Assembly (NCBI GenBank): GCA_937127125.1
Contig: CAKZLO010000034.1
Span: 267,257 to 331,256, forward strand
Origin: an uncultured Ardenticatenia bacterium
GTDB lineage: Bacteria > Chloroflexota > Anaerolineae > 4572-78 > NAK82
DNA length: 64,000 nt
Direction of reading: 5' to 3'
Part shown: piece by piece, positions 3,700 to 62,604 of the stretch
Layout of the letters: every line of letters begins with the position of its first letter
Numbering within the stretch: position 1 is the stretch's first letter
The notes under the pieces: model-generated
The model's input: the letters and a program-made list of their open reading frames with translations, nothing else
What the model was told of the DNA's origin: nothing
Databases searched by the model: none
Program-made: the position numbers and the translations under genes

Positions 3700-4653
3700 A
3701 TGAAGATCGCAAATGATGTAACAGAGCTGATAGGAAATACACCTTTAGTGCGCATTCGACGTATGAGTAAGGGGTGCGTGGCGGATGTAGTGGCCAAGTT
3801 GGAGTTTTACAACCCGGCGCATAGTGTCAAAGATCGCATCGGGGTCTCTATGATTGAAGCTGCTGAAAAAGCCGGGTTGATCAAAGAAGATACCATAATC
3901 CTGGAACCCACCAGCGGTAACACAGGTATTGCGTTGGCCTTTGTTTGTGCGGCACGTGGGTATAAGTGTACCTTGGTGATGCCTGAGACGATGAGCATAG
4001 AGCGTCGTATGCTGCTGCGCGCCTATGGCGCTGAGATTGTGCTCACTCCCGGTTCCGAGGGCATGCCAGGCGCGGTGCGACGCGCCGAGGAGATGGCAGC
4101 AGCAGATCCTCGCTACTTCATTCCTAACCAGTTCAAGAACCCAGCTAATCCAGAGATCCATCGCAGGACAACTGCCGAGGAGATCTGGCGCGATACAGAT
4201 GGCAAGGCAGACATTCTTGTAGCAGGTGTGGGTACTGGGGGCACCATCACAGGTGTAGGAGAGGTAATCAAGGCACGCAAGCCCTCTTTCCAATGCATCG
4301 TTGTCGAGCCGGATGCATCACCAGTTCTTTCTGGCGGACAAAGGGGGCCGCATCCTATTCAGGGTATTGGCGCTGGATTCATTCCAGAGGTGCTGAATAC
4401 AAAGATCTACGATGAGGTCATTCGGGTGAAAAATGAGGATGCATTCCAAACGGCGCGACGTATGGCACGTGAGGAAGGGCTGTTGGTGGGCATCTCGTCG
4501 GGGGCAGCTATGTGGGCAGCGCTACAAGTAGCTCAGCGACCAGAGAACGCCGGAAAAATGATTGTGGTGATCATCCCGTCATTCGGGGAGCGATATCTGA
4601 GCACAGCTTTGTTTGCCGACTTGGCGAATGAGGTTACCTCGGTAGGCTTATGA
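3700..4653 (+). CDS. cysK: Cysteine synthase (O-acetylserine sulfhydrylase)
   Basis: This 317-residue fold-type II PLP enzyme makes L-cysteine from O-acetylserine and sulfide. It has the PLP lysine in HSVKDRIG (near residue 45), the substrate loop [11 protein letters not shown], the phosphate-binding [11 protein letters not shown], the [12 protein letters not shown] segment and the C-terminal [10 protein letters not shown], all at normal spacing. GGGAGG lies upstream of the ATG. It follows an Rrf2 regulator and overlaps the end of the convergent degV gene by 6 nt. Cystathionine beta-synthase or O-phosphoserine sulfhydrylase are close relatives that cannot be fully excluded. Confidence 0.94.
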
Positions 4654-5541
4654 GTCTCTTGGCTCTTTCGCTGGTGCGAATAATAGACTATGGACAGGGA
4701 AGTAGTTTACCCCGACGCAACCTGGACCAGCATGCACACCCAGCGCGGGTGACAGTTGGGTAACAAGTGCCTCGATGCATTCGAATGCCTCGAGCACCAA
4801 TTCTAAGAACGCTGCTGCCCGCTCAGGGGCAGCAGCGTGTGTCACAGCAACCTTGATAGGTGTCTTATCTGCGCCTTGTTCTGCCATCAATTCGATTATC
4901 TTCCTCATAGCATGGGGAATGCTCCGCGCAGTGCCCATCGGCACAATGACTCCTTCTTCCATGCTGATGATAGGCTTTACGTTGAGCAATGTTCCTAACA
5001 GGTGCTTAGCTCGTCCAATGCGTCCGCCTAAATACAGATAACGCAGCGTGTCGGCTGTTTTAAGCATATGGCCGTTCTGGCTGACCCATCGCACTATCGC
5101 AAGCACTTCTTCCATTTTTGCACCGCGCTGTGCGGCTCGTGCTGCCTCAATAGCAGCCCATCCATGCACCATCGCCACCTGCAGGGTATCCACTACTTCA
5201 ACGCGCAAATGTGGTAGCTGGATCGCGGCAATATCACGTGCAATGCACGCCGATTGGTACGCACCGCTACCCTTCGACGTCATCGTCACCACAACAGCTT
5301 GAGAGGCCCATCTTGCAACACGTTCGAATGCTGCCAGGTAATCGCCTGGCCCTGGATTAGCAGTTGTTGGCAATTGCGTCGCGGAGCGCAGCCACTCGTA
5401 AAACTCTTCAGCCGTGATGTCTACTTCATCGCGCAGTGTTTTATGTCCGCGATGCAGATAATAAGGTACCACTTCTATACGGAGGCTGTCCACTAACGCG
5501 CGAGGAATACTGGCGCATGTATCTGCCACAATTGCGATCAT
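4648..5541 (-). CDS. DegV family fatty-acid-binding protein (copy 1)
   Basis: This 297-residue protein opens [16 protein letters not shown], the DegV signature, and carries the [11 protein letters not shown] and [10 protein letters not shown] segments that contact the lipid head group, plus a C-terminal HAGPGCVGV. DegV (FakB-type) proteins bind fatty acids and can deliver them to a fatty acid kinase. The ATG at 5541 is chosen because the longer frame would overlap the upstream paralog. It lies 4 nt after that gene's stop, so the two are surely co-transcribed. No FakA gene is present in the window. Confidence 0.9.
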
Positions 5542-5545
5542 TGCG

Positions 5546-6412
5546 TCACGAACCTGTTGTTCGAAGCGGGAAGTAGCTGACCCCAATCATACCGGGGCCG
5601 GTGTGTACGCCCAAAGCTGGTGAGGTCTGGGTAACAAATGCTTCACGGCAGTCAAATGTCTTGGTGACCAGCTCAAGCAGCGCCGCAGCCCGGTCAGGAG
5701 CCGCGTTGTGAGTAATTATCACCTTTATGGGTCCTCTGCTGGCACCCTTGTCAGCCATCATTTCCACCATCTTGTGATAGGCTTGCTGGATGCTACGTGC
5801 TTGGCCCATTGGCACAACGATGCCATCCTCCATACTGACTATAGGTTTGATGTTAAGCAAGGTGCTCACTAGGTGTTTTGCCTTGCCGATGCGGCCTCCA
5901 AGGTAGAGGTACCTGAGCGTGTCGAACGCCTGGAGCATCAGTCCTGAACGTGCTACATAACGAGCGGTCTCGGCAACCTCTTCCAGAGCGGCCCCCTGTA
6001 GCGCGGCACGTGCTGCCTCGATGGTCGCCAAGGCGTGCACGCCAGAGACTTGCAGAGTATCGATTACCTCGATCCTGATACCGGGCAGACGCGTCTCTGC
6101 CATTTCCCGTGCCACACATCCTGCTTGATAGGCACCACTTCCTTTAGAAGTCATATGGATAGAGACGATCCCGGAAGCACGTTGCGCGGCGCGTTCAAAA
6201 GCCTGTAGATAGTCTCCTGGTCCTGGGTTGGCCGTCGTAGGAAGCCTCTGCACTGAAGGGAGCCAACGATAGAACTCCTCAGGGGAGATGTCGATCATGT
6301 CGCGCAATGTCTCGCCTTCTCGGTGGATGTAATATGGCACAACCTCGATCTGGAGCATATCTACCAGGTGCTGCGGAACACTGGCGCATGTGTCTGTGAC
6401 AACTGCTATCAT
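5546..6412 (-). CDS. DegV family fatty-acid-binding protein (copy 2)
   Basis: The 288-residue paralog of the next gene downstream, matching it along the whole length: MIAVVTDTCASVPQHL opening, [37 protein letters not shown] and HTGPGMIGVSYF. GAGGCGAGGG before the ATG supports start 6412. A TTGACA-like -35 box on the reverse strand lies at 6493-6498, but its -10 box is unclear. The pair probably arose by tandem duplication; they may bind different acyl chains, as FakB1/FakB2 do. Confidence 0.9.
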   Translation of the reverse strand: MIAVVTDTCASVPQHLVDMLQIEVVPYYIHREGETLRDMIDISPEEFYRWLPSVQRLPTTANPGPGDYLQAFERAAQRASGIVSIHMTSKGSGAYQAGCVAREMAETRLPGIRIEVIDTLQVSGVHALATIEAARAALQGAALEEVAETARYVARSGLMLQAFDTLRYLYLGGRIGKAKHLVSTLLNIKPIVSMEDGIVVPMGQARSIQQAYHKMVEMMADKGASRGPIKVIITHNAAPDRAAALLELVTKTFDCREAFVTQTSPALGVHTGPGMIGVSYFPLRTTGS

Positions 6413-6537
6413 TGCTTGTTCCCTCGCCTCTACTTGATATGATTCTGCGCAGTGATGCAACCCATTTTATTCCGTGAAGTGGATTCGGCAATTGTCAATG
6501 TGTGTTGTGTTATTTCCATGGTGGGGTTAACAATGGG

Positions 6538-6566
6538 TTGCAATTTGTCAAGAATTGTGATATACT
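6538..6566 (+). promoter_or_regulatory. Promoter of the nine-gene membrane operon
   Basis: TTGCAA (6538-6543), a 17-nt spacer and TATACT (6561-6566) preceded by TGA make a good extended -10 promoter. The first start codon (6582) is only 15 nt beyond the -10 box, leaving a leader of roughly 9 nt with no ribosome site. Confidence 0.75.
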
Positions 6567-6581
6567 TACATTACGTAAACT

Positions 6582-7424
6582 ATGAAGCATTCTGGTGATG
6601 TCAAGGATCTTATACGTGCCCTGACAGCGCGGCAACCTGCTTTGCGCTGGCAGGCTGCTGCACGCCTTGCCCTTGCAGCACGTCAGGCGCACGCTGGCGC
6701 GCTTGCCGCACTTGGTGATGCACTAGGGGATGAACACCCCTTCGTACGTTGGCAAGCTGCTAGGGCGCTGGTGTATGCCCGTAGTCCAGCTGCCTTGGCT
6801 ATTCTTCAGCGTGCTCTGACCGAGGGAATCCCACCTGCGCAAGCTGCCGCTATAGATGCACTGAGTGAGGTGCGGAAGCCAGATATCTCCCTTCTGCTGC
6901 ATGCGCTTGAAAGTAATGATGCAACGGTGCGCCAGAGCGCTGTCGAAACCCTTGTCCGCCATCGTGTACGCGCTGCGGTGCCGCGTCTAATAGATTTGTT
7001 GAGTGACCCAGCTCCTGGTGTGCGTAAAGCTGTTGCCAGTGCTCTTGCGTTTTTGTGGGATGAGCGTGCTGTTATACCACTCATCGAGCGTCTTAAGGAC
7101 GAGTCCCCGCTGGTGCGGCGCAGCGCGGCATACACGTTAGGGGCGCACCGCGCGCGTGCGGCTCTCTCTGCATTGTTAGATGCTCTAGGAGATCCTCAGC
7201 CTGAGGTGCGTTACACAGCTGCATGGGCTATTGGCCGCCTGAAAGCACGTGTGGCTCTGTCCCATCTTGAGAGATTGCTCGATGATGCTGCTTTGGACGG
7301 CATGGTAGCGAATGAAGCGGCCCGCGCAATAGCTGCAATTAATCGTCGAGGTTGGCGACAAATAGGTTCTTTGCTGAGGCGAACCGATGCGCCATTGCCA
7401 TCACGGATAGAAGGAACAAAATGA
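6582..7424 (+). CDS. HEAT-repeat (PBS-lyase-like) protein
   Basis: This 280-residue protein is built of about eight 31-residue helical repeats with the pattern D-x-x-x-x-VR-x-x-A-A-x-A-L (for example DEHPFVRWQAARAL, DESPLVRRSAAYTLG, DPQPEVRYTAAWAIG). Such HEAT/EZ_HEAT scaffolds mediate protein contacts and have no catalytic residues. It is soluble, has no signal peptide, and opens a nine-gene operon. Its last four bases (ATGA) overlap the start of the next gene. The function is probably as an assembly or regulatory scaffold for the membrane proteins downstream, which is an inference from position. Confidence 0.88.
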   Translation: MKHSGDVKDLIRALTARQPALRWQAAARLALAARQAHAGALAALGDALGDEHPFVRWQAARALVYARSPAALAILQRALTEGIPPAQAAAIDALSEVRKPDISLLLHALESNDATVRQSAVETLVRHRVRAAVPRLIDLLSDPAPGVRKAVASALAFLWDERAVIPLIERLKDESPLVRRSAAYTLGAHRARAALSALLDALGDPQPEVRYTAAWAIGRLKARVALSHLERLLDDAALDGMVANEAARAIAAINRRGWRQIGSLLRRTDAPLPSRIEGTK

Positions 7425-7723
7425 ACACTTCGAGCGATAGTGTGTTGGACCGAGTGGCACAGCAATTGATCCGTTGGCGTCTGACTGTGCCGGCTATTGT
7501 CTTCCTACAAGCGCATAAGCCACTTAGCTTTGTGGGTGCCCAGTTGTTGCTGGTCCTGGAACCAGTCCTAGTGGTCTTTCTGCCGCATCGCTGGATTGTT
7601 GATGGGGTGACATTGTTGACAGATTCTAGAGGGTGGGATGTTCTGCTGCATAAGCTGGAGACTTTACAGAGGAAACAGCTGGAGCCAGCCAAGACGTCGG
7701 CGATCTCTAGTGGTGAGACGTGA
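7421..7723 (+). CDS. Small hypothetical protein (100 aa)
   Basis: A 100-residue protein with an amphipathic N-terminus and a hydrophobic central stretch (about residues 22-50, VPAIVFLQAHKP to VLVVFLPH) that could be a membrane-associated hairpin. AAGGA lies 5 nt before the ATG, and both ends overlap neighbours (ATGA with the HEAT gene, GTGA with the next), so it is translated as part of the operon. I do not recognise the family. Confidence 0.75.
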   Translation: MNTSSDSVLDRVAQQLIRWRLTVPAIVFLQAHKPLSFVGAQLLLVLEPVLVVFLPHRWIVDGVTLLTDSRGWDVLLHKLETLQRKQLEPAKTSAISSGET

Positions 7724-8463
7724 GCGAGATACAACACATTCTGCTCAGTTTGTTGCTCATTTTTGTTATGGCATTGATTATCGGCAGGTGGCGAGTTGGC
7801 AAGTGGATGCCTGCTGAATGGCGTGTCATTCCCGCCTTTGATCGATTAAGTCATGCCGTGCAACGCGCTATCGAGCGAGGGCGAGCTTTGCATCTAGCAT
7901 TGGGAAGAGGGGCTCTTTGGAGCAGCACTGCAACTGACAGCTTGGCGGGTGTAGAAGCACTGAGGTCCATTGCAGAGCATTTGAGCCTAGTTGGTCAGAT
8001 GCCACTTGTCACCACAGGAGATGCGACGTTGCAGCTGCTGGCCGAGGATAGCGTACATCGCATCGGGTGCCGCAACAAAGCCGGTTTCTCGCAGGCAAAG
8101 CCGGATGTTCGTTGGCTGACGGCAACGCCGGCGGCATATGCCGCTGGTGTGATGGACATCTTGAAAGATGATACCGTTGAAGCAAATGCGATGATCGGTT
8201 TCTTTGGCACCGAATACCTCCTAATGGGTGAGCCAGGAGCACAACGAGCGGCGGTACAGGTGGGTGGCGCCAGTGAGCCTACAGTATTGCCTTTTGTACT
8301 GGCCACGTCCCGGGCGGCTCTCCTCGGTGAGGAGTTGTATGCAGTGGGAGCTTATCTTGCGCATAACCCATGGCATGCGGGCAGCTTGTGGGCACAAGAT
8401 GTCGTGCGCTGGCTTATCGTGTTGCTGGTGCTCGTTGCTGTGATGGTAAATACACTGGTGTAA
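7720..8463 (+). CDS. Membrane-anchored hypothetical protein, possibly DUF6754-like
   Basis: A 247-residue protein with a GTG start overlapping the previous stop. It has one N-terminal membrane segment (IQHILLSLLLIFVMALIIG), a conserved-looking cytosolic or extracytoplasmic domain with the segments ERGRALHLALG and TTGDATLQLLAEDS, GFFGTEYLLMGEPG in the middle, and a C-terminal membrane segment (WLIVLLVLVAVMVNTLV). The core resembles what I recall of the DUF6754 family of Chloroflexota, but I cannot confirm that. No catalytic motif is apparent. Confidence 0.8.
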   Translation: MSEIQHILLSLLLIFVMALIIGRWRVGKWMPAEWRVIPAFDRLSHAVQRAIERGRALHLALGRGALWSSTATDSLAGVEALRSIAEHLSLVGQMPLVTTGDATLQLLAEDSVHRIGCRNKAGFSQAKPDVRWLTATPAAYAAGVMDILKDDTVEANAMIGFFGTEYLLMGEPGAQRAAVQVGGASEPTVLPFVLATSRAALLGEELYAVGAYLAHNPWHAGSLWAQDVVRWLIVLLVLVAVMVNTLV

Positions 8464-8526
8464 GACGCAACAGACCGTTTTTCTATAGATGCTTGCTTTA
8501 GGCTGATCACAGCAAGGAGGTGGTTT

Positions 8527-9144
8527 TTGTTGGGTCGTCTGGTCTCAGTGCCGGTGGCGATGGGAGTGGGATTACTGGTGCTAGCCAGCTATTTCGTCAC
8601 GGATGTCCAGCTGGACGCACTCGTCAGCGGCTTAGTGTACAGCGCATCGGTTGTGGCAGCTTTTGCGTTGCTTCTGGGTTTGGTTAATTTGGCCCGTTTT
8701 CACCTTGCCAGGGTCCGTACCCGCAGTCCTGAGAGCATATACAGCATAGTTTTGATAGGAGCACTGGCAGCCACTTTGGCATTGGGCTTTATCAGCGGTG
8801 GGCCTAATTCCCAGTGGATGCAGCATCTTTTTGATAGTGTGTTGTTCCCTTTACAAGCAGCGATTTATTCATTGTTGGCATTCTTCATCGTGACGGCCAC
8901 GTATCGTACCTTTCGGGTTCGCAGTGTTGAAACCGCTTTGTTTGTGATCTTTGCCGTTGTAGTGTTGCTCGGTCAGACGCCAGCAGGAATTTTGCTATGG
9001 GATGCGTTGCCCATGATCAAGGATTGGATATTTGATGTGCCCGTTCTGGCGGGCACGCGTGGCATCCTCATGGGTGTGGCGTTGGGTTCCTTGGCCACCG
9101 GGATGCGTGTGTTGGTGGGTGTTGGTCGGCCATATGCCGATTGA
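8527..9144 (+). CDS. Polytopic membrane protein of unknown function (205 aa)
   Basis: This 205-residue protein has about six hydrophobic segments separated by short loops (for example PVAMGVGLLVLASYF, AASVV-type helix near 40, IVLIGALAATLALGF near 80, LFVIFAVVVLLG near 140, and a last helix near 185). The TTG at 8527 (or the next TTG at 8530) is supported by AAGGAGG 6-9 nt upstream. The cytosolic loop RVRTRSPES is positively charged. It may form a complex with the second polytopic protein of the operon (11735-12394), which is similar in size and helix count. Confidence 0.78.
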   Translation: MLGRLVSVPVAMGVGLLVLASYFVTDVQLDALVSGLVYSASVVAAFALLLGLVNLARFHLARVRTRSPESIYSIVLIGALAATLALGFISGGPNSQWMQHLFDSVLFPLQAAIYSLLAFFIVTATYRTFRVRSVETALFVIFAVVVLLGQTPAGILLWDALPMIKDWIFDVPVLAGTRGILMGVALGSLATGMRVLVGVGRPYAD

Positions 9145-9161
9145 GTGGGGAGAGACAAGAA

Positions 9162-11738
9162 ATGTCCATCTGTCCTAATTGTGGTGCACCGAACCAGATA
9201 GGTATCGCCAATTGCGTTCGCTGTGGCGTTTCCTTAAGCGAAACGAAGGAAAGTGGCTCAGCTGTTCGCGGACAGCAGCCCACATCGATCTCCATTCCAT
9301 CCGGTGTCTCTCAGAAGCCCACAACTTTCCCACAGGAAGAGATACCGGATTGGTTGGAAATTTTGCTCGCACGCTATGGCGAGCCGATACCCACCTTTGA
9401 GGATGTCTCTGTTGAAGTCGTATCCTCCGCTGCCCCAACGGAGCCATTGGCTACACCGCACTTGGCTTCCGGAGCCCCTGAGCCGCCGAGGTCCGAATCT
9501 GAGGATGCTGAGCTGTTAGGGGAAGTCGAACGGCTTAAGCGGTCACTCGTCGAGGAGCAACCTGCTACTAAAGAGATCTCTGGAGCAGCTGATCTCCCAA
9601 TCAAGACGCCTGCCGCTTCCAGAGAGGTGGACGACTGGTTGGCAGAGCTGCGAGCTCTGCAGGCAAACGTTGCCTCAGAGTCTGTGTCAGGCTCCATTCC
9701 GGTGGGTCCGTCGGCAGAGGAAGCCTTACAAGGAGTTCTGCCTTCTGAGCCAGTTGACAACGCAGCACAGCTGGAACGTCCCGAAGCTGCAACAGAGGAG
9801 ACCCCTTCTATACCAACAGAAGCATCCCTTGGCCCAACAGAGCTATCTGAAAGCGTGACTACAAGCACTTCAGAGGAGGAATCCGTACCGGAATGGCTGC
9901 GCGAGCTAGGGCTGGTGTCATCGGAGCAATTGGTTTCCCCTCCGAGCGTTGAGCCGGGCCAGACCAGTGAGACACTCGGTACCTTGCCTATGGCAGAAAA
10001 GGGGATATCCGAGGTGTCAGGCGCGACACCATCGGATGAGGAGATACCCGATTGGCTGAAACGGTTGATCGCCATCTCGTCTCAGGTGCCGGAGGCGGCG
10101 TCAACGGGCGAAGCTGCAAGGTCTGAGGAATCCGGAACTGGAGGTGAACTTGAGGAGCTCAGTTCTGCTGAGGGGGCGACCTCGGGTGAGTCGCTGCCAG
10201 ATTGGCTACGAGAGCTGCAAACGATGGAGACAACTCAATTGGATGCAGCTGCGCCTCCCGAGGAACGAAAGGCTGCTGAACGAGTGCCGGAAGAGCGAGA
10301 ACTTCCGAGTGCGCCGGAAGCAGCTACCTCAGTGCCAACAATTGTTGAAGGGATATCTTCTGTTGCTGCAGCGGAGGCCAAGATACCAACCAGTGAAGAG
10401 GGACCTCCGGCCGAATGGCTGGCTGAGCTGGAGGAGTTGATAGAACATCCACCTGCCGAACAGATGAGCCCACCTCCTGCCGAGGAGGAAGTACCTGACT
10501 GGCTCCGTGAGCTCGCAGCGGAGAGACCTGAGGAGGAGCCTGAAGTGCAGGTGCCTGTAGAACAACAAAAGACCCCTCCACTGGAGCCAGCGGAACTCCC
10601 CGAGTGGCTGGCACAGCTGCACCCGGGGGAGGGAGGCAGCGAAGCGGTGCCTGCTCAGACTGCTGCTGTGTTCCCTGAAAGCCAACACTTGGCAAGCGGC
10701 GAGGATGTGATCGGGACGTTGCGTGCACGACTCGGTGTTCCTCAGGTGCCTGATGTCGAAGGTGCCACCCTTTTCCGTGAGATTGTGAGTGAGCCGCCAG
10801 AAATGACAGCTGTCCCTGTCCCGGAGGAGGTAGAAGCAGCACCACGACGCAACATTTTAACAACTGTCATCTGGGCGTTGGTCTTTGTGGCTATCCTTCT
10901 GGGGATTGCCATTTTGTCCTTAGCTCTCCTGGATTACGTCCGAGACTTGTTGGGGGAGACTGCATTCCAACGTTTCCTGAACACTCCGGCGGCGGCCGGA
11001 CTGGTTGCCTCTCTGGAAGAATTTCGCGAGCCTATTGTGGCTGTGCAGCAGAACGATATTGTGTTGCTCAGCATCGAGTACACCCCCGCTACTGAGGCAG
11101 AGATGCAACCACTGGCTAGGGTTGTGCTACACGATCTCCTAGGGCACGGAGCGCGGGTGTTAACGGTGAGTCAACAACCCGAGGGACCTGCCTTGGCACA
11201 GCGCCTGCTCGACGAGGCAAGTGCGACATACCCGTATGGTGAACGCACTCTGAATTTGGGGTATCTCCCGGGTGAAGCAGTAGGGGTGCGCAGCCTGGAA
11301 CGATTGCAAGGCCGACAGGTTTACGCATCACCGAATAGGATGTGTCACACGTTAGGTGAGTGCCCCACTTGGCGTGACGTGCGGGGAATCGAGGACGTGA
11401 AGCTCTTTGTTATAGTAGCGGATTGTGCTGAGCCAGTGCGCTGGTGGATAGAGCAACTTCCCACTATGTTCCTTGGCAATCGTCCTATGATAGCTGCAGT
11501 GAGTGCTGTGGCGTTGCCTACCTTGCGTCCTTATCTTATTTCTGCCTCTGCAGCGCGAACACGACTGGAAGGGTTGATCGGTGGAGTTACAGCTGCAGCT
11601 GCCTATGAAATTTATACTGGCGAACCGGGTCGTGCATTGGGTATGATGGCGGCACAATCCGCTGCGCACCTGGGACTGTTCGTCGTTGCCTTGGCAGGGA
11701 TCTTCGCAGGAATCCGGGCAGGGACAGGTCGTCAGTGA
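9162..11738 (+). CDS. Zinc-ribbon membrane protein with eight W-L linear motifs
   Basis: An 858-residue protein. It begins with a zinc ribbon (CPNCG and CVRCG). A long acidic, Ser/Glu/Pro-rich and probably disordered region (about residues 40-560) contains eight short repeats of the form [VIL]-P-[DE]-W-L-x-x-L at nucleotides near 9342, 9630, 9885, 10045, 10193, 10407, 10492 and 10599. One transmembrane helix follows (ILTTVIWALVFVAILLGIA) and then a folded C-terminal domain of about 270 residues ending in two hydrophobic segments. ATG 9162 is favoured over TTG 9141 by GGGGAG 7 nt upstream. The motifs look like docking peptides for a partner protein. Not a family I can name. Confidence 0.82.
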   Translation: MSICPNCGAPNQIGIANCVRCGVSLSETKESGSAVRGQQPTSISIPSGVSQKPTTFPQEEIPDWLEILLARYGEPIPTFEDVSVEVVSSAAPTEPLATPHLASGAPEPPRSESEDAELLGEVERLKRSLVEEQPATKEISGAADLPIKTPAASREVDDWLAELRALQANVASESVSGSIPVGPSAEEALQGVLPSEPVDNAAQLERPEAATEETPSIPTEASLGPTELSESVTTSTSEEESVPEWLRELGLVSSEQLVSPPSVEPGQTSETLGTLPMAEKGISEVSGATPSDEEIPDWLKRLIAISSQVPEAASTGEAARSEESGTGGELEELSSAEGATSGESLPDWLRELQTMETTQLDAAAPPEERKAAERVPEERELPSAPEAATSVPTIVEGISSVAAAEAKIPTSEEGPPAEWLAELEELIEHPPAEQMSPPPAEEEVPDWLRELAAERPEEEPEVQVPVEQQKTPPLEPAELPEWLAQLHPGEGGSEAVPAQTAAVFPESQHLASGEDVIGTLRARLGVPQVPDVEGATLFREIVSEPPEMTAVPVPEEVEAAPRRNILTTVIWALVFVAILLGIAILSLALLDYVRDLLGETAFQRFLNTPAAAGLVASLEEFREPIVAVQQNDIVLLSIEYTPATEAEMQPLARVVLHDLLGHGARVLTVSQQPEGPALAQRLLDEASATYPYGERTLNLGYLPGEAVGVRSLERLQGRQVYASPNRMCHTLGECPTWRDVRGIEDVKLFVIVADCAEPVRWWIEQLPTMFLGNRPMIAAVSAVALPTLRPYLISASAARTRLEGLIGGVTAAAAYEIYTGEPGRALGMMAAQSAAHLGLFVVALAGIFAGIRAGTGRQ

Positions 11739-12394
11739 GTACAGAAACGATTATTGCTGCCATTTTGACGTTTATGATATGGTCATACGTTTTGGGTGAT
11801 AATCCAGCTTTCCGAATTGCTGCGCACCTGCTGATTGGCACTGCTGCAGGTTATGCTGCCATTGTCGCTTGGTTCAACGTGGTGCAGCCAGCAGTACGCG
11901 ATGTTCTGCTGCGGCCTACTCCTGTGGCAGCTCTGCCACTTGTTCTGTGCGCCCTATTGGTAGCACGTGCATGGCCGCCTATAAGACATTTAGCTGCCAT
12001 CCCGTTGGCTTTTCTGCTTGGTGTGGGTAGTGCATTAGCCGTGGGAGGTGCTTTGTTTGGCACTTTGTGGTCACAGGTGCTGGCAACTGCTAGCCTTTCG
12101 CTGAATCCAATCGACGCTCACGAATCCCAACCGTTCTTGACCAGCAGCTTCTTTTGGCAAAACTTAGCCATTCTGATCGGGACGTTGGGTACATTCTGTT
12201 ATTTTACGTTTCACGTTCGTCCACGTGGCCCACTGAGCGGTCTGCGCGCTACTTTTGTCCGTTTCTGGAGCGGAGTAGGACTTTGGTTGATTATGATAAC
12301 CTTAGGTGCTCTTTTCGCCAACGCTGCCATGTCGCGCTTTACACTTCTCATCGGTCGTGTACAGTGGCTGATTGAGGCATTTGGGTTGAGGTAG
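11735..12394 (+). CDS. Polytopic membrane protein of unknown function (219 aa)
   Basis: A 219-residue protein with a GTG start overlapping the previous stop (GTGA). About six hydrophobic stretches are visible, including IIAAILTFMIWSYVLG, LPLVLCALLVARAW, LAFLLGVGSALAVGGALFG and WLIMITLGALFANAA. No catalytic motif. Its size and helix number mirror the 205-residue protein two genes upstream. Three nucleotides separate it from the MutL-like gene. Confidence 0.78.
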   Translation: MSTETIIAAILTFMIWSYVLGDNPAFRIAAHLLIGTAAGYAAIVAWFNVVQPAVRDVLLRPTPVAALPLVLCALLVARAWPPIRHLAAIPLAFLLGVGSALAVGGALFGTLWSQVLATASLSLNPIDAHESQPFLTSSFFWQNLAILIGTLGTFCYFTFHVRPRGPLSGLRATFVRFWSGVGLWLIMITLGALFANAAMSRFTLLIGRVQWLIEAFGLR

Positions 12395-12397
12395 CCG

Positions 12398-14215
12398 TTG
12401 AAAAACCTGAACAATCGCCTGCTGGTTTCCGACATCGGAAGCACAATGACCACTGTGGCGCTTATTGATCGCGTTAATGGGCGGTATCGTTTTGTGGCGC
12501 GTGGGGAGTCACTTAGCACATATGGGTGGCCGTGGTCGGATGTGACAGTGGGCATTCGCGCAGCGGCGCGTCAGATCGAACAGCTGCTGGGATGTACTTG
12601 CTTTCGAGACGATGGAACGCTTATCTGGCCGCGCACGGCTGATGGCGATGGTGTGGATAATTTTGTAGCAGTGAGCAGCATTACGTCCCCAGTCCGCACT
12701 GTGTTGGTCGGCCTGACACGCGATATGAGTCTACGTAGTGGATATCGTGCGCTCGCTTCCGTGGCAGGCTTGCAACTAATGGCCAGTTTGGCCTTTGACG
12801 ATGGATTGGAACGTCGTGACCCTAATGCTTGGCTGGCCGCTCTGCAGCGTGCGCGTCCCGAGCTTGTGCTCATCGTGGGCGGATGTGATGACGGCGCCGT
12901 CCAACCTATGATTGACATAATCCAAACAGTCGCGCTCTACAATCGGTTGCAGCCGCCCGCTGAGCGTGCACTGGTGTGTTATGCAGGCAATGCCCAGCTT
13001 GCGGAGGCAGCTGCACAGGCATTTGCTGGGCTGGGAGAGTTGCGCATTCTCCCCAACGTGCGTCCCTCACCGGAAACTGAGAACATCGGCCAGGCAGCGT
13101 TAAGTATCGAGACGTTATGCTGGGAACGCCGTCTGATGCAGGTGCCGGGGATGCTGCACGTAGCCGAATGGACCGGGGGAGTGGTAGTGCCCACCGCGCG
13201 TTCATTTGGCCAACTGATCCACTACGTGGGTCAACGCTATGCGCTTAATGTGATCGGCTTTGATGTAGGTAGCAGTCAAACAACTATGGCATATTACTAC
13301 GGGCGGGCGCTCGATGCAGTTCATGGCCACTGGAGCATCGACGATACGATACACCTAACTGTGCGTGCTGATTTAGGAATCGGGTGGGCTATCCCTGTTG
13401 CCTTACAGCATGTCGAACTGGAGCGTATCGCACGTTGGCTGCCCGAGGAGGTGAATGCTGAGAGGATACAGGAGATACTGCTTAACAAGAGCCTGTATCC
13501 TCAGAGTGTACCGGCTGAGCCGACGGAATTGTTTGTTGAACATGCTCTGGCACGTGAAGTAATGCGTGAGACATTGGGAGACCGTAGCAACCTCGCGCCC
13601 ACGGCGATGTGGGATCTGATCATTGGCAGCGGACGGACACTGACGCGCACCCCTATGCCTGGATATGCCGCCCTCTTATTATTGGACGCGCTGGAACCTG
13701 TTGGCATCACCAAGTTGGCACTTGACGTAGGCAATATCGGTGCGGCCCTGGGTGCAGTGGCGATGCGTAACCCTTTAGCCGCTGCAGATCTTGTTGAACA
13801 CGATGCTTTCCTGACGTTGGGCACTCTGGTGGCGACCTCAGGGTATGTTTCGCCCGAGGAAATCGCTGTTCGCGTGAGGTTAGAGTGTCGTGATGGGCGT
13901 GCCGTACAGGGGGAGGTGCCGGGTGGAACTGTGCGCGTGATCCCATTGCCTGCTTACCAGTCAGGGACATTGATGCTGTATCCGATTCGGAAGGTCGACG
14001 TAGGCGTCGGCCGAGCTGGCACCAGTGCCGTCGTAGAAGCGGAAGGAGGCACGCTGGGCATCCTGGTGGACACGCGCGGACGCCCTCTTGCTCTCCCTAC
14101 AGAGGTACTGGCGCGATGTCAGTTGATACAGAGATGGTTGGACAATGTCTCACATAAAGGAGACAGCCCCGTCCGCTCGCAAATAGCATCGGAGAAGATA
14201 TTGCGCGCCGCATAG
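12398..14215 (+). CDS. MutL/GlmL-like ASKHA ATPase
   Basis: A 605-residue protein matching the glutamate-mutase accessory MutL group. The actin-like ATPase motifs are visible: phosphate-1 DIGSTMTTVALID (near residue 12) and a second GFDVGSSQTTMAYYYG (near residue 287). GGCDDGAVQPMID follows the first subdomain. In amino-acid fermenters the family member sits beside glutamate mutase subunits (mutS/mutE) and is thought to protect or reactivate the B12 enzyme, but no mutase gene is present here. The TTG start is 3 nt after the preceding gene. In this operon it more likely energises assembly of the membrane proteins, which is inference. Confidence 0.85.
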   Translation: MKNLNNRLLVSDIGSTMTTVALIDRVNGRYRFVARGESLSTYGWPWSDVTVGIRAAARQIEQLLGCTCFRDDGTLIWPRTADGDGVDNFVAVSSITSPVRTVLVGLTRDMSLRSGYRALASVAGLQLMASLAFDDGLERRDPNAWLAALQRARPELVLIVGGCDDGAVQPMIDIIQTVALYNRLQPPAERALVCYAGNAQLAEAAAQAFAGLGELRILPNVRPSPETENIGQAALSIETLCWERRLMQVPGMLHVAEWTGGVVVPTARSFGQLIHYVGQRYALNVIGFDVGSSQTTMAYYYGRALDAVHGHWSIDDTIHLTVRADLGIGWAIPVALQHVELERIARWLPEEVNAERIQEILLNKSLYPQSVPAEPTELFVEHALAREVMRETLGDRSNLAPTAMWDLIIGSGRTLTRTPMPGYAALLLLDALEPVGITKLALDVGNIGAALGAVAMRNPLAAADLVEHDAFLTLGTLVATSGYVSPEEIAVRVRLECRDGRAVQGEVPGGTVRVIPLPAYQSGTLMLYPIRKVDVGVGRAGTSAVVEAEGGTLGILVDTRGRPLALPTEVLARCQLIQRWLDNVSHKGDSPVRSQIASEKILRAA

Positions 14216-14239
14216 GATCCAGAGGATAGGAGAGGCACC

Positions 14240-15358
14240 TTGGAGGTTGAGGTAGGCGAACAGCATGGAGGTCCATTATTGCCTGTCGTCCAGTGTGCTA
14301 AATCGAGACGCCTTCGCGTCGAACGCGTTCTACCCACAGCAGCAGAGGTGCTGGTGGAAGAGGACGAGCAAGTGACGCCAACGCGGATAATTGCACACGT
14401 TGCCAGTGGCGCACGCCGTCAGGTGCGCATTGTGGATGTGGCAGGAACATTGAACTTATCGGAACGTGATGTATCATCGGCTATGGTGAAGAAGCGGGGT
14501 GAGAAGATACAGGCTGGCGAACTACTCGCTGCGCGGCGCAGCTTCCTGCCATTTGCATACCACGCGTGCCGTTCGCCAGTTGATGGGCGCTTGGTGGCGG
14601 TCTCATACGGTTGGGCAGTGATTGAAATAGCTGCCGAGGAGTTAAGTATTCCTGCACTGGTGGGTGGTCGCGTCGCTGGCGTGGTACCCGGGCGCAGCGT
14701 AATCATAGAAACCGATGCTGCCTGCATCGAGGGAGCTTGTGGCATCGCTGGAGAGGCTTATGGTGTGATACGACTGCTCGGTAAAAGTTCCTCGGACTAC
14801 TTGGTGCCGGAGCAGCTGCCTAAGGATGCAGTGGATGCCATCCTGGTCACCGATGTCGCCGTTTCATGCAAAACACTGGAACGAGCTGCTGAAATTGGTG
14901 TCAAAGGGCTGATCGCAGCTGGCATACCAGTGATGCCTCCAAAGGCCACAATGCTACCTGTAATGGCAACTGAGGGATACGGAGGACGTCGTATGGCGTC
15001 GGAGCGTCTTCGCTTGCTTCGGGAGCTAGACGGATGTCACGGAGCACTCATTGTGCCGCCGAGAGATATGCCATTGTGGATGCGCCGGCGGCCCGCTTTG
15101 ATTGTCACGGAACCGCAGCATATGCACGCCGGAGGAAACTTGGAAGGAGATGAGCAGGTGCGACGTCCAGTATCAAAAGGGGATCGTGTGAGGTCGGTGC
15201 GTGCACCGATGGCTGACCGGTGGGGAAGGATTTCTGGAGAGAATTGGGACAGGCAGATCGAGACCCCTTCCGGGTTAACTGCGGCCGGTGTGGAGGTGCA
15301 TTTCTCTACAGGTGCCACTGCCTGGTTACCATGGCTCAATCTGGAACGCGTCCTGTAA
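14240..15358 (+). CDS. Hypothetical protein with barrel-sandwich-like segments
   Basis: A 372-residue soluble protein. Two stretches resemble biotinyl/lipoyl or barrel-sandwich folds: KKRGEKIQAGELLAARR with SPVDGRLVAVS (about residues 82-125), and a second beta-rich region around GVVPGRSVIIETDAACIEG (150-180). The C-terminus contains a KOW-like patch rich in basic residues and a beta-strand end (TGATAWLPWLNLERVL). The start is a TTG with AGGAGAGG upstream. It follows the MutL-like gene by 24 nt and is probably its functional partner. Family not recognised with certainty. Confidence 0.78.
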   Translation: MEVEVGEQHGGPLLPVVQCAKSRRLRVERVLPTAAEVLVEEDEQVTPTRIIAHVASGARRQVRIVDVAGTLNLSERDVSSAMVKKRGEKIQAGELLAARRSFLPFAYHACRSPVDGRLVAVSYGWAVIEIAAEELSIPALVGGRVAGVVPGRSVIIETDAACIEGACGIAGEAYGVIRLLGKSSSDYLVPEQLPKDAVDAILVTDVAVSCKTLERAAEIGVKGLIAAGIPVMPPKATMLPVMATEGYGGRRMASERLRLLRELDGCHGALIVPPRDMPLWMRRRPALIVTEPQHMHAGGNLEGDEQVRRPVSKGDRVRSVRAPMADRWGRISGENWDRQIETPSGLTAAGVEVHFSTGATAWLPWLNLERVL

Positions 15359-15407
15359 GTGACTCGAAAAGGTTCTTCGACAGATCAGAGAGGAGCAAAA
15401 CACAACT

Positions 15408-15875
15408 ATGGCAAACAACAAGCTATTCGTGATGATTGCCATCTTCCTGGTGGGCATGTTGGTTCTCGGATTGTTCGCCATTGGTGGTGTGGTTATCTTT
15501 GGCACCATCAACAGACAGGCAGCACGTCCTACACCGACCGCTACGCTGGCAGTGGTCAAGCTGCCTGCCACACCAACAACAACTTCCACGCCCACTGCCA
15601 CGCCGTTGCCAACGAATACACCGCTGCCTACACCGACGAATACCCCGGTGGTGCAGGCAACAGCGACGCCAAGCACGGTCGAGGGCGCGCCGGAGCTGAG
15701 TGGACAAGCCGAAGAACCGATCCCTGCCCCTACGTGGACGCAGGCACCTGAGGCTTCGGTTGCAGCAGAGGAGAGCACACCCGACACGGGCATCGGCGGC
15801 ATCGAGATGATTCTGATTGCTGTGGGGTTGGTGGGCGTGTTGTTCATTGCGCGACGTCTGCGAACCAACAGCTGA
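15408..15875 (+). CDS. Pro/Thr-rich protein with two membrane segments and PDTG tail
   Basis: A 155-residue protein: N-terminal membrane helix (LFVMIAIFLVGMLVLGLFAIGG), a Thr/Pro-rich spacer of about 45 residues typical of Chloroflexota cell-surface linkers, an acidic stretch, and a C-terminal TPDTG motif, hydrophobic helix and RRLRTNS tail. That tripartite tail resembles a sorting signal (motif, helix, basic end), although PDTG is not the classical LPXTG. GAGGAG precedes the ATG. It lies 49 nt after the barrel-sandwich gene and is probably the last gene of the operon. Confidence 0.75.
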   Translation: MANNKLFVMIAIFLVGMLVLGLFAIGGVVIFGTINRQAARPTPTATLAVVKLPATPTTTSTPTATPLPTNTPLPTPTNTPVVQATATPSTVEGAPELSGQAEEPIPAPTWTQAPEASVAAEESTPDTGIGGIEMILIAVGLVGVLFIARRLRTNS

Positions 15876-16082: not shown

Positions 16083-16472
16083 GTGAGAGGGTATCGTGTA
16101 GGGTTATGGGAGGCGTTGCGCTACCGAGGCGGGATCGGTGTGTTGGTGTGGATACTCCATCGCATTACTGGGCTGGGTATCCTTCTGTTTGTAAGTATAC
16201 ACGTAGTGGCCGCGTTTTTCATGAACGCCTTGAACGATTCGATCTCTACAGCAGTCACACACTGGTATGAGTCACACCCTGTTCAGGTGTTCGTTTACTT
16301 CTGCGTTCTATACCACGCTCTCAACGGATTGCGCGTCTTGTTAGAGGATTTCTATCCCCCGCTGTTGCGTTACCATCGTGAGTTGATATGGCTGCAGTGG
16401 GCAATATTTGTACCCGTTTTCGGACTCCCGGCTTTTTTCATAGCACAGGGCATCGTACTAGGCACCCCTTGA
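16083..16472 (+). CDS. sdhC: Succinate dehydrogenase cytochrome b556 subunit
   Basis: A 129-residue membrane anchor of respiratory complex II with three helices. HRITGLGILLFVSIHVVAAF contains the heme-ligand histidine of SdhC, and FCVLYHALNGLRVLLEDF is the family's second signature. It helps bind heme b and quinone and holds the SdhAB head on the membrane. GTG start with AGGAG 8 nt upstream. First gene of sdhCDAB. Confidence 0.92.
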   Translation: MRGYRVGLWEALRYRGGIGVLVWILHRITGLGILLFVSIHVVAAFFMNALNDSISTAVTHWYESHPVQVFVYFCVLYHALNGLRVLLEDFYPPLLRYHRELIWLQWAIFVPVFGLPAFFIAQGIVLGTP

Positions 16473-16532
16473 AAATGCGAAGCCGCTCATAGGATCTGCT
16501 CATTATTTTGGGAAGAGAGGTGATGGGCGAGT

Positions 16533-16946
16533 ATGAGACGCTCTGTTGAATGCAACGGACTTGAATACTATTTGTGGCTTTTCACTCGTCTGAGTGCCAT
16601 TATGATGTTATTCGCTGGTGCTGCCGGTATCGTTTATGCCAATCTATTGGGACGCACCGTCATGGACGCGCCGGCCCAGTATCGTTGGGCCTTCTTCCCT
16701 ATTTACTGGCACGTACAGAATACTGGCGTACCGGACGTTTTTCCATTGTGGTCTAACGCTTTCTGGCGTGTCTGTTGTACTATTCTGCTTTTTATTGCAT
16801 CGTTGCATGGCTTTAATGGATTGCGTGTCGTGGTCGAAGACTACGTTCATCGTTCTACACTCCTGGTTCTGCTCAAGGGTCTCATTGTTTTGCTGTTTAT
16901 GTTCGTGTTCGGTGCCGGCACAGTGATCATCTTCGAATGGTTCTGA
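16533..16946 (+). CDS. sdhD: Succinate dehydrogenase hydrophobic membrane anchor subunit
   Basis: A 137-residue three-helix protein. The opening [15 protein letters not shown] and the central [16 protein letters not shown] place a histidine where SdhD carries a heme ligand. The segment between the first and second helices ([19 protein letters not shown]) is longer than in proteobacterial SdhD. AGAGAGGTGAT precedes the ATG. It pairs with SdhC to bind heme and quinone. Confidence 0.85.
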
Positions 16947-16968
16947 TCTCATTGACAAGGGTCGTGTT

Positions 16969-18774
16969 GTGGAAGGTGATGTAGTACTACACAAATATGA
17001 TGTGGTGATTGTAGGTGCCGGTGGCGCAGGGCTAATGGCGGCTCTGTATGCGTCGCGCAGCGTGCGTGTGGCAGTGCTCTCCAAGATGTGGCCAGTGCGT
17101 TCCCATACTGGTACTGCGCAAGGAGGTATCGGTGCCGCGTTGGGCAACCATGAGGAAGATCATCCAGAATGGCATGTGTTCGACACCATCAAGGGCAGTG
17201 ACTACTTGGCTGATCAAGACGCTGTACGCGTTCTATGCTACGAGGCAGTCGAGCTGGTCTACGAGCTGGAACATATGGGATTGCCGTTCGACCGTACCCC
17301 TTCGGGGCGCATTGCGCAGCGACCTTTTGGTGGCCACACCAATAATGTGACAAAACAGCCAGTACGACGTGCCTGTCACGCCGCTGATCGCACCGGTCAC
17401 ATGATCCTCCAAACACTCTATCAGCAGTGCATTAAACAACGGGTCACCTTCTTTGACGAATTTCAGGTATTGGATGTAATCCTGAATGAGGGTATTGCTT
17501 GTGGTTTGGTAGCACTGGAGATCACCACTGGTCAGCTGCACATCTTCCAGGCGCGTGCGGTGGTCTTCGCAACCGGTGGCTGGGGGAAGATTTGGCAGAT
17601 TACCAGCAATGCTCACAGTTTTACCGGCGATGGTGCTGCAATAGTGCTGCGGCGTGGCATTCCACTCGAGGATATGGAGTTCTTCCAGTTTCATCCCACT
17701 GGCATCTATAAAATGGGCATCCTCATTACAGAAGGAGCACGTGGTGAGGGTGGGGTCTTGATCAACGGGCGTGGTGATCGTTTCATGGAAAGATATGCGC
17801 CCACGATGAAAGATTTGGCCTCGCGTGATGTCATCTCGCGTGCGATCTATCTTGAGATTCGCGAGGGTCGCGGTGTGGAGGGCAAGGACTATGTCTATCT
17901 AGACATTCGCCCCGAGACAATCAATCGTTACTTTGAGCTGGACGGGAAGAAAAGTCCCGATGGCACACCGCGTCGCATCACGGCAGATGAGATCAAGACG
18001 CGTCTGCCCGACATCACCGACTTTGTACGCACCTACTTGGGTATAGACCCACTTAACCAACCAATTCCTGTGCAGCCCACGGCGCATTATGCGATGGGGG
18101 GCATTCCTACCGACCTTGATGGGCGCGCATTGAAAAATGAAAACAACGAAGCCTTGCCCGGCCTCTATGCTGCAGGGGAAGTCGCCTGTGTATCGGTGCA
18201 TGGTGCTAATCGCTTGGGCACCAACTCGCTGGTAGACATTCTGGTCTTCGGCAGACGTAGCGGTTTGGACGCTGTGCGCTACTGTCGCCAGACCGATTTT
18301 ACCAAGTTGCCGGCCCGTGCGGATGAACCAGTTCGTGAGACATTAGAGTCGTTGCGCTCACGGCCCCTTGGAGACGAACGCATCGCCGACATTCGCGCTG
18401 AAATGCAGCGTGTTATGATGGACTATGTGGGTGTCTTCCGCGAGGCGACAGGCATAGAGAAAGCAATCCGCGCCCTCCGTGAGCTACAAGAACGTTATCA
18501 GCGTGTGGGCATCCAGGACAAGAGTATGTGTTACAACACTGATTTGCTGGAAGCTTGGGAGCTCGGGTGCCTTTTGGAACTGGCCGAAGTAACCGCCGTC
18601 GCCGCGTTGGCACGTACCGAGAGCCGAGGATGCCACACGCGCGAAGACCATCCTCAGCGCGATGATAAGAACTGGCTGAAGCATAGCTTGGCCTTTCGCA
18701 CCGAGCAAGGGATCGAACTGCGTTACAAGCCAGTGACGATCCTGAATTATCCTCCTCAGGAACGGGTGTACTGA
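16969..18774 (+). CDS. sdhA: Succinate dehydrogenase flavoprotein subunit
   Basis: A 601-residue FAD subunit that oxidises succinate to fumarate on the cytoplasmic side. Visible features are the dinucleotide motif [14 protein letters not shown] (near residue 14), the [15 protein letters not shown] segment holding the histidine that covalently binds [24 protein letters not shown], the active-site R in [12 protein letters not shown], and the C-terminal [13 protein letters not shown] and ANRLGTNSL. Length is normal. GTG start 22 nt after sdhD. The fumarate reductase direction cannot be excluded from sequence alone. Confidence 0.96.
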
Positions 18775-18811
18775 TCAACCGCTGCGCTCGATAGGAGAAG
18801 GTGCAGAGCAC

Positions 18812-19510
18812 ATGAAAGTCATTCTTAAGATTCGCCGATTTAACCCGGAGAGAGACCGTGCTCCCTGGTGGGGCTATTATCAGGTGGAATGTGAGCCCAC
18901 TGATCGGGTGTTGGACGCTTTAAACTGGGTCAAGTGGTATCAGGATGGGTCGCTGGCCTATCGGCGTTCCTGTGCCCATGGCATCTGTGGCTCCGATGCT
19001 ATGCGCATCAACGGGCGTAACCGCCTGGCATGCAAAACTTTGATCAAAGAACTAGGAAACCGCATCACAATTGAGCCATTGCTAGGCTTGCCAGTGATCA
19101 AGGACTTGGTGGTGGATTTGGAACCCTTTATGAAGCACTATCGCTCTATTATGCCTTATCTGGTCAACGATGACCCGCCTCCAGCAACCGAACGCTTGCA
19201 AAGCATTGCTCAACGTGAGCGCTTCGACGACACAACCAAGTGCATTCTGTGTGCTGCCTGCACCACCTCATGCCCCGCTTTTTGGGCGCGACCGGATTAT
19301 ATTGGCCCGGCAGCAATTGTGCAGGCGCATCGCTTCATTTTCGACAGCCGTGACCATGGCGCCGAGGAACGCCTCCGGATCCTGGATGCTCCTTCTGGAG
19401 TGTGGCGCTGCCGCGACATATACAATTGCACGGAGGCGTGTCCACGCGAAATTCAAGTAACACAGGCGATCGCTGAAGTGAAACGCGAAATCTTGAGGCG
19501 TCGTGGATGA
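18812..19510 (+). CDS. sdhB: Succinate dehydrogenase iron-sulfur subunit
   Basis: A 232-residue electron-transfer subunit carrying three clusters: the 2Fe-2S ligands in RRSCAHGICGSDAMRI and LAC (about residues 50-75, with the aspartate seen also in E. coli), the 4Fe-4S set CILCAACTTSCP (about 148-160), and the last cysteine set CRDIYNCTEACP near the C-terminus. It passes electrons from SdhA to quinone. Last gene of sdhCDAB; convergent with the glycosyltransferase gene. Confidence 0.96.
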   Translation: MKVILKIRRFNPERDRAPWWGYYQVECEPTDRVLDALNWVKWYQDGSLAYRRSCAHGICGSDAMRINGRNRLACKTLIKELGNRITIEPLLGLPVIKDLVVDLEPFMKHYRSIMPYLVNDDPPPATERLQSIAQRERFDDTTKCILCAACTTSCPAFWARPDYIGPAAIVQAHRFIFDSRDHGAEERLRILDAPSGVWRCRDIYNCTEACPREIQVTQAIAEVKREILRRRG

Positions 19511-62311: not shown

Positions 62312-62400
62312 GGGAAGGTGCCAGAGTGGACGATTGGGGCGGTCTCGAAAACCGCTGCGGGGCTTGGTCTCCGCCGTGGGTTCGAATCCCACCCTTCCCG
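62312..62400 (+). tRNA. tRNA-Ser (anticodon CGA)
   Basis: An 89-nt class II tRNA. The acceptor GGGAAGG pairs with CCTTCCC (62393-62399) and the discriminator is G. The anticodon stem GCGGT/ACCGC holds the loop CTCGAAA, giving CGA (reads UCG). The long variable arm and T-loop TTCGAAT are present. CCA is not encoded. Confidence 0.95.
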
Positions 62401-62514
62401 CTGCCCGTTGTCGATGTGGATGCTGGAACGTTACGGACGGATCATCGAAGAAATTGGGTCGGTGCCAAGTGTCCTCGCACCACGCAAGGCGGGCAGGATA
62501 TAACTAATAATTTT

Positions 62515-62601
62515 GGAGAGGTCGCATAGTCTGGTCTAGTGCGCACGATTGGAAATCGTGTAGGCGTAACAGCCTCGCGGGTTCAAATCCCGCCCTCTCC
62601 G
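62515..62601 (+). tRNA. tRNA-Ser (anticodon GGA)
   Basis: An 87-nt class II tRNA with acceptor GGAGAGG/CCTCTCC and discriminator G. The anticodon stem CACGA/TCGTG closes the loop TTGGAAA, giving GGA (reads UCU and UCC). The variable arm GGCGTAACAGCC and T-loop TTCAAAT are clear. It ends 3 nt before the SRP RNA, so the two are probably cut from one transcript. Confidence 0.95.
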
Positions 62602-62604
62602 CCT

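Follow-up and report, generated by a model that had tools for sequence, protein, structure and literature searches.

The window analysed here (64,000 nucleotides; positions 267,257 to 331,256 of contig CAKZLO010000034.1 of the uncultured Ardenticatenia bacterium assembly GCA_937127125.1) comes from contig 34 of a Chloroflexota assembly of 3.7 Mb, and carries nine plus-strand open reading frames (ORFs), g1 to g9, spanning positions 6582-15875 (Table 1). Six genes, g3, g4, g5 for its C-terminal domain (g5C), g6, g7 and g8, constitute a conserved core that recurs in many phyla which have received little study, usually with g2 alongside, and their standing as one functional unit is well supported. 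The reading proposed here, to which roughly even odds are given (about 0.5), is that they represent a new class of ASKHA-powered envelope systems spread over about ten phyla, in which a reactivase-like chaperone pair (the MutL-type ATPase g7 and its partner g8) would drive a membrane complex (the quartet g3-g6) whose effector domains lie on either side of the membrane.

Conservation of the gene set in Chloroflexota

DUF6754 (PF20539), the family of g3, was found in 44 of the 201 Chloroflexota genomes sampled, or 25 of 133 genera. Among close relatives it is present in 27 of 31, and none of the seven genomes of the window's family lacks it. The gene order g2-g3-g4-g5-g6-g7-(g8)-(g9) was kept in 36 fetched neighbourhoods wherever the contig was long enough; the set and its order, which an earlier preliminary description of this DNA had proposed to check in Chloroflexota genomes, are thus collinear throughout the phylum. 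Recurrence of the g2-g8 order in about 30 Chloroflexota loci, and its permutation in other phyla, confirms that the arrangement exceeds chance.

PF13941, the family of g7, scored above its cut-off in 83 of the 201 Chloroflexota genomes: 43/44 of those with DUF6754 and 40/157 of the others. In the 44th DUF6754 genome g7 is present as a fragment, where a contig ends. Among 18 loci taken from DUF6754-negative genomes one (L197) is a divergent full cluster, and g8 adjoins g7 in 15 of the 17 remaining loci. In many of these loci a zinc-ribbon protein is encoded separately in front, in some cases one with P-x-WL-type repeats. A sensitive g3 profile, by which divergent positives were recovered, matched in 0/18 g7-positive DUF6754-negative genomes. 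Because g7-g8 were seen without the quartet and the quartet was never seen without g7-g8, the distribution suggests a general soluble ATPase module, broader in range, and a membrane module that depends on it.

Distribution beyond the phylum

The cross-phylum scan was performed with the g7 motif G[VL][VI]ID[AT]RGRP against 85k GTDB species genomes and returned 497 relatives; the reach is read through this motif and is therefore biased to g7-bearing loci. The best 80 of the 497 belong to Chloroflexota, Armatimonadota, Poribacteria, Planctomycetota (including Brocadia and Scalindua), Calditrichota, Cloacimonadota, Sumerlaeota, Eisenbacteria, Zipacnadia and unnamed lineages. A second gene order, g2-g7-g8-g3-g4-g5C-g6, was observed in 11 of these best 80 (L079, L116, L121, L127, L131, L135, L139, L141, L146, L147 and L149; g2 was not detected in L131), and occurs in Planctomycetota, Sumerlaeota, Armatimonadota, Poribacteria, Scalindua and unnamed phyla. 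There g5 is reduced to the C-terminal ~280 residues alone, and several of the loci have a membrane protein of ~145 amino acids (aa) upstream of g2.

In Poribacteria, Calditrichota, Brocadia and several Chloroflexota the genes are scattered, and the same genome still holds them; on the Poribacteria chromosome G204, for instance, g7 lies at 2.31 Mb, g8 at 3.55 Mb and the quartet at 3.63 Mb. Within the quartet the order g3-g4-g5C-g6 is kept in the fetched neighbourhoods, one second Calditrichota copy consisting of g3 alone. DUF6754 was found in 18 of 20 g7-holding genomes (linked and unlinked cases mixed), and PF13941 in 21/21 genomes with the quartet. In Chloroflexia-like genomes g8 does not stand beside g7 and was located elsewhere (20/21 genomes), the sole genome without it among the 21 being an 84%-complete assembly of 320 contigs. 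The preliminary description had counted genes scattered or absent as a set against itself; since the scattered genes still co-occur in the genome, its claim stands, and joint presence, with fixed order where the genes are linked, bears out the statement that they work together. That the dispersed genes still occur together argues for one functional unit more strongly than does the operon itself.

Two observations concern particular assemblies. One labelled Chthonomonas (G212:C158) contains a third DUF6754 cluster (L185), with the Chloroflexota order and a long g5, which represents transfer or contamination. Some Armatimonadota (L111, L126, L140) have two extra genes between g7 and g8, encoding in L111 a zinc-ribbon-like protein of ~300 aa and a protein of ~230 aa with one transmembrane (TM) helix.

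The ATPase g7 and its partner g8

The MutL-like ATPase around which the set had been described as built was recovered as a member of PF13941 (182.4 bits, gathering score 27). Its nucleotide-site residues D12 and D289 and its GxGG loop are conserved (by group, D12 in 77-99%, E being its usual replacement, and D289 in 72-100%), and the sequence D-[AT]-R-G-R-P is near-invariant in the C-terminal extension. With GlmL/MutL of glutamate mutase and Or-4 of ornithine degradation (PF13941, NF040745, NF040744, TIGR01319) it shares the whole ASKHA domain of ~450 residues, but differs from them by an extra C-terminal domain of ~130 aa containing IDARGRPL and by its partners, which are g8 and the membrane quartet, with no mutase in its genomes. 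In one Chloroflexota family (L041, 2326-4464; L044, 15598-17772) P-[DE]-WL motifs were noted in g7 as well, within its C-terminal tail.

For g8 the AF2 model agreed with the earlier barrel-sandwich-like call and added two further domains. In comparisons of the model with PDB structures, the barrel-sandwich domain is NqrA/BCCP/RnfC-like (Z ~8 for that of NqrA), the swivelling domain is nearest to UPF0107, RraA, aconitase X and rifampin phosphotransferase (Z 9-10 over 100-130 residues), and the KOW domain is nearest to NusG/L24 (Z ~8). A sequence search of solved structures yielded nothing beyond fragments of KOW and barrel-sandwich domains and weak matches to FN3. The N-terminal barrel-sandwich hybrid and the polytopic company of g8 recall RnfC and NqrA of RNF and Na+-NQR, but no other RNF/NQR family was matched and g4/g6 were not matched to RnfA/E. 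Membership of g8 in these complexes was rejected on a score under the curated cut-off: the window's g8 has no Pfam match to RnfC_N or NQRA_N, and that of Scalindua reaches 22.9 against 25.6 for RnfC_N and 16.5 against 25 for NQRA_N. Likewise, the C-terminal KOW/Tudor-like fold is that of NusG/Spt5 KOW proteins (at the Z given above), but g8 otherwise consists of a barrel-sandwich and a swivelling domain, and its context is a membrane system.

In Chloroflexia-like genomes g8 stands alone, with one or two receiver-domain genes after it (L243-L246, L249-L252). Receiver proteins are also encoded next to g8 in L193, L196 and L248, and after g6 in L131.

The membrane quartet g3-g6

The assignment of g3 to PF20539 is clear (118.1 bits, gathering cut-off 27); Pfam gives this family no function, and it is placed here in a defined multi-gene system. 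The charge pattern (positive-inside rule) would place its DUF6754 domain in the cytoplasm. Outside Chloroflexota, g3 has an added signal peptide or TM helix and an N-terminal extension of ~130 aa with faint FN3-type matches.

The preliminary description had presented g5 as a giant zinc-ribbon protein with repeated peptides, flanked by two polytopic proteins. Six [IVL]P[DE]WL repeats are indeed present in g5, against 0.02 expected in shuffled sequences (0-15 PxWL repeats in homologues), but the zinc-ribbon/PxWL half is an addition restricted to Chloroflexota, and the conserved part comprises the last ~290 residues only. The start codon of g5 may be an in-frame ATG located seven codons 3' of the TTG at 9141. 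The C-terminal domain is modelled as Rossmann-like between two long helices (pLDDT 86), is predicted from the charge pattern to lie outside the cell, and in the alignment shows invariant Y-x-P..E, GYxPG and Y-E residues near strand ends. Chains of the eIF2B/R15P-isomerase type were recurrent Foldseek matches for this domain (E ~5e-3), are missing among the VIA matches listed, and were not used. A second copy of the gene for this domain stands right after g6 in a Sumerlaeota genome (L121, 7767-8609).

The flanking proteins g4 and g6 are both polytopic, as described, and neither falls into any family; homology between them was considered and found to be without profile support. In profile-profile comparison the g3 and g5 domains are collinear over 230 columns with an E-value of 0.005 but a probability of 7% (1% with wider alignments), so that their common ancestry is suggestive but not established.

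Proposed mechanism and alternatives

By analogy with reactivases, a machine of two modules may be envisaged, a possibility advanced tentatively: a reactivase/Hsp70-like pair, g7-g8, acting on four membrane proteins that together have domains on either side of the membrane. The first module would be soluble and consist of the ATPase g7 and its partner g8, often with g2; the second would lie in the membrane and consist of the cytoplasmic alpha/beta domain of g3, the outer Rossmann-like domain of g5C and the polytopic proteins g4 and g6. We infer that g7 hydrolyses ATP and, together with the swivelling domain of g8, alters the state of a partner. This partner would be the quartet, which could be assembled, remodelled or switched by ATP-driven conformational change, and which might bind a ligand or partner and convey a substrate or signal between the domains on its inner and outer sides. 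The zinc-ribbon/PxWL tail that g5 has in Chloroflexota may act as a flexible multivalent tether for further partners, and the HEAT protein g1 and the surface protein g9 would be lineage add-ons.

The closest working analogy is the reactivase of glycerol dehydratase, in which an Hsp70-like ATPase domain works with a swivelling domain and exchanges subunits (PMC7674605); MutL, for its part, has been described as the chaperone of glutamate mutase (PMC4682846). In the glycerol/diol dehydratase reactivases (GdrA/DdrA) these two likewise form one working unit, but both domains belong to the same alpha subunit (PMC7674605), whereas here the swivelling domain is carried by the separate g8, with a barrel-sandwich and a KOW domain; here there are also membrane partners and no dehydratase client.

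Several points weigh against an ATPase-driven membrane machine. The reactivase analogy is weak, because the swivelling domain is on a separate chain and swivelling and Rossmann folds are common. The hydrolysis of ATP, the formation of a complex and the topology in the membrane are inferences. The association of PF13941 with DUF6754 (Fisher p 2e-19) was calculated within one phylum and ignores kinship. Two of the 20 g7 genomes, G210 and G211, have no DUF6754 match, and the phosphate-2 Asp of g7 is replaced in a few Chloroflexota. In the search for a specific relative of the g5 domain, Foldseek and VIA-align gave generic Rossmann matches only (Z 8-10; a mix of SDR, RCK and methyltransferase chains), which is not evidence of a new fold.

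The preliminary description favoured a secretion or envelope-assembly machine. In such a machine g4/g6 would form a channel or flippase, g3/g5 would provide gating or coupling, g7 would act as motor, and the clients would be surface proteins, g9 or others. A polytopic pair and bitopic proteins do occur with a cytoplasmic ATPase, and an LPxTG-like g9 with sortases in the genome; but no secretion ATPase, secretin, pilin, channel or transporter family scored above cut-off in Pfam or NCBIfam, g9 occurs in fewer than half of the Chloroflexota loci and in no second-order locus, and the ATPase family is of the chaperone/reactivase type. We know of no ASKHA protein acting as a transport motor. This claim was left without direct support, and the explanation is considered unlikely.

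A membrane enzyme or redox/metabolite complex, whose g5/g3 domains would bind a nucleotide or small ligand and which g7-g8 would activate or repair in the way that reactivases serve B12 enzymes, is given slightly less credit still. It would fit the Rossmann-like g5 domain with invariant residues near strand ends, the barrel-sandwich domain of g8 nearest to RnfC/NqrA/BCCP, and the neighbouring sdh genes here and nuo or atp genes elsewhere. However, no cofactor motif was identified in g3-g6, neighbours vary by lineage (adjacency to receiver genes or energy operons being mostly that of one lineage), and a Rossmann domain outside the cell is atypical of redox enzymes.

Domains on both membrane faces would also suit a signalling or stress-sensing complex, in which the outer g5 domain and the outer extension of g3 would sense an envelope cue, g7-g8 would relay it inside, and receiver proteins would be outputs in some lineages. 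Receiver genes directly adjoin g8 in Chloroflexia-like genomes and occur one at a time in others, but close to the cluster genes they are only about twice as dense as in the local background (14 receiver-domain ORFs near against 12 far, rate ratio 2.1, mostly from one lineage), and no kinase partner was seen; this explanation is judged improbable. Finally, that g7 is merely a GlmL-type reactivase of a B12 mutase, with the remainder incidental, accords with its PF13941 membership and with the description of MutL as a glutamate mutase chaperone (PMC4682846), but was rejected as barely credible, since g7 scored far under the NCBIfam equivalog and subfamily cut-offs (GlmL 64.6/475, Or-4 72.9/600, TIGR01319 28.5/204 bits; for the Scalindua homologue 225/475, 208/600 and 159/204 bits), glutamate mutase GlmE (PF06368) was above cut-off in 0/21 genomes, the window's own included, and g7 co-occurs with g3-g6 and g8 instead.

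Novelty and significance

The statement that no described system has this content is upheld: no match to one was obtained in Pfam, NCBIfam, PADLOC, PHROGs or the literature searched, in which no paper naming PF13941 or DUF6754 was found. A defence system was rejected (PADLOC gave repeat-level matches for the HEAT protein g1 only and none for g2-g9), as was a phage origin (no PHROGs match). The novelty is in the composition of the system and not in its folds, which are common. All members except the ATPase domain and a DUF are without a family, and a set that many phyla retain, whether in one of two operon orders or dispersed yet co-occurring, very likely has an important role. DUF6754 thereby gains a home in which its function can be tested, and so does an extensive non-mutase branch of the MutL family, whose members might easily be mistaken for glutamate mutase accessory proteins. 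If g7 does drive a membrane complex, the ASKHA ATPases would extend from the chaperoning of soluble enzymes to the powering of an envelope machine.

Accessory genes g1, g2 and g9

Although a HEAT scaffold had been included in the set, g1 is not a core gene. It lies directly upstream of g2 in 6/6 other members of the window's family and in 4 further members of its order, that is, in the loci of 10/27 relatives and in none of 36 wider loci, and is a family- or order-level addition. The small protein g2 was found in 35/37 loci of the Chloroflexota set and in 34/80 other loci.

For the anchored Pro/Thr-rich protein g9, the description as Pro/Thr-rich stood and two TM helices were found, but g9 is not core (15/37 loci of the Chloroflexota set, 0 loci with the second gene order). 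Its C-terminal hydrophobic helix and RR tail are preceded by an (L)PxTG-like motif; compared with sortase substrates from sequence alone, the motif is PDTG in the window and LPNTG in many homologues, with a hydrophobic helix and RRLR tail. Three PF04203 sortases are encoded in the window's genome.

Layout of the locus and neighbouring genes

The nine same-strand genes were all located as described, mostly overlapping or nearly touching: 4-base overlaps occur at four junctions, g1/g2 (ATGA), g2/g3, g4/g5 and g5/g6, and the gaps, none above 63 bases, measure 3 (g6/g7), 24 (g7/g8), 49 (g8/g9) and 63 bases (g3/g4). The single promoter reported ahead of the cluster is present as a pattern, such promoter-type matches being only about twice as frequent as expected from shuffled sequences. 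The part descriptions were mostly correct (HEAT for g1, ~100 aa for g2, two helices for g3, polytopic g4/g6, zinc ribbon for g5, ASKHA for g7, barrel-sandwich-like g8 and Pro/Thr-rich g9). In Pfam and NCBIfam only g1 (HEAT), g3 (PF20539) and g7 (PF13941) matched a family above cut-off, and none was obtained for g2, g4, g5, g6, g8 and g9.

Table 1. Features of the gene cluster (positions within the window; lengths in amino acids).
Feature	Position	Strand	Length	Description	Basis or remark
Promoter-like site	6538..6566	+		TTGCAA-17-TATACT with extended TG	Consensus match only; just upstream of g1
g1	6582..7424	+	280	HEAT-repeat protein, accessory	PF13646, 1e-36
g2	7421..7723	+	100	Small protein, family-less	Kept in most loci across phyla
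g3	7720..8463	+	247	DUF6754 protein: TM - alpha/beta domain - TM	PF20539, 4.9e-34
g4	8527..9144	+	205	Six-TM protein, family-less	Topology and profile searches
g5	9141..11738	+	865	Zinc ribbon, ~500-aa low-complexity region, C-terminal TM-domain-TM	Repeats, model
g6	11735..12394	+	219	Polytopic, ~6-7 TM, family-less	Conserved GDNPLFRxAxYLFVGVxxGY segment
g7	12398..14215	+	605	MutL/GlmL-type ASKHA ATPase with ~130-aa C-terminal extension ending ..IDARGRPL..LP	PF13941, 1.8e-53
g8	14240..15358	+	372	Barrel-sandwich hybrid, swivelling beta/beta/alpha domain and KOW domain	AF2 model, pLDDT 85
g9	15408..15875	+	155	Pro/Thr-rich surface protein, accessory	N-terminal TM, C-terminal hydrophobic helix

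Upstream, on the minus strand and divergent from the operon, are two tandem DegV-family paralogues (window positions 4648-6460); other Chloroflexota loci (L036, L038, L040, L045-L048, L067) likewise have degV-like genes no more than several kb away from the cluster. Downstream, beginning with sdhC at a distance of 207 bases from g9, is a complete set of succinate dehydrogenase/fumarate reductase genes (sdhCDAB, 16083-19510; two membrane subunits, flavoprotein and Fe-S subunit). Elsewhere g7-g8 or g8 adjoins nuo genes (L193, L196) or atp genes (L244-L246, L250, L251, L192). Two neighbouring tRNA-Ser genes (cga, gga) are located at 62312-62603 of the window.

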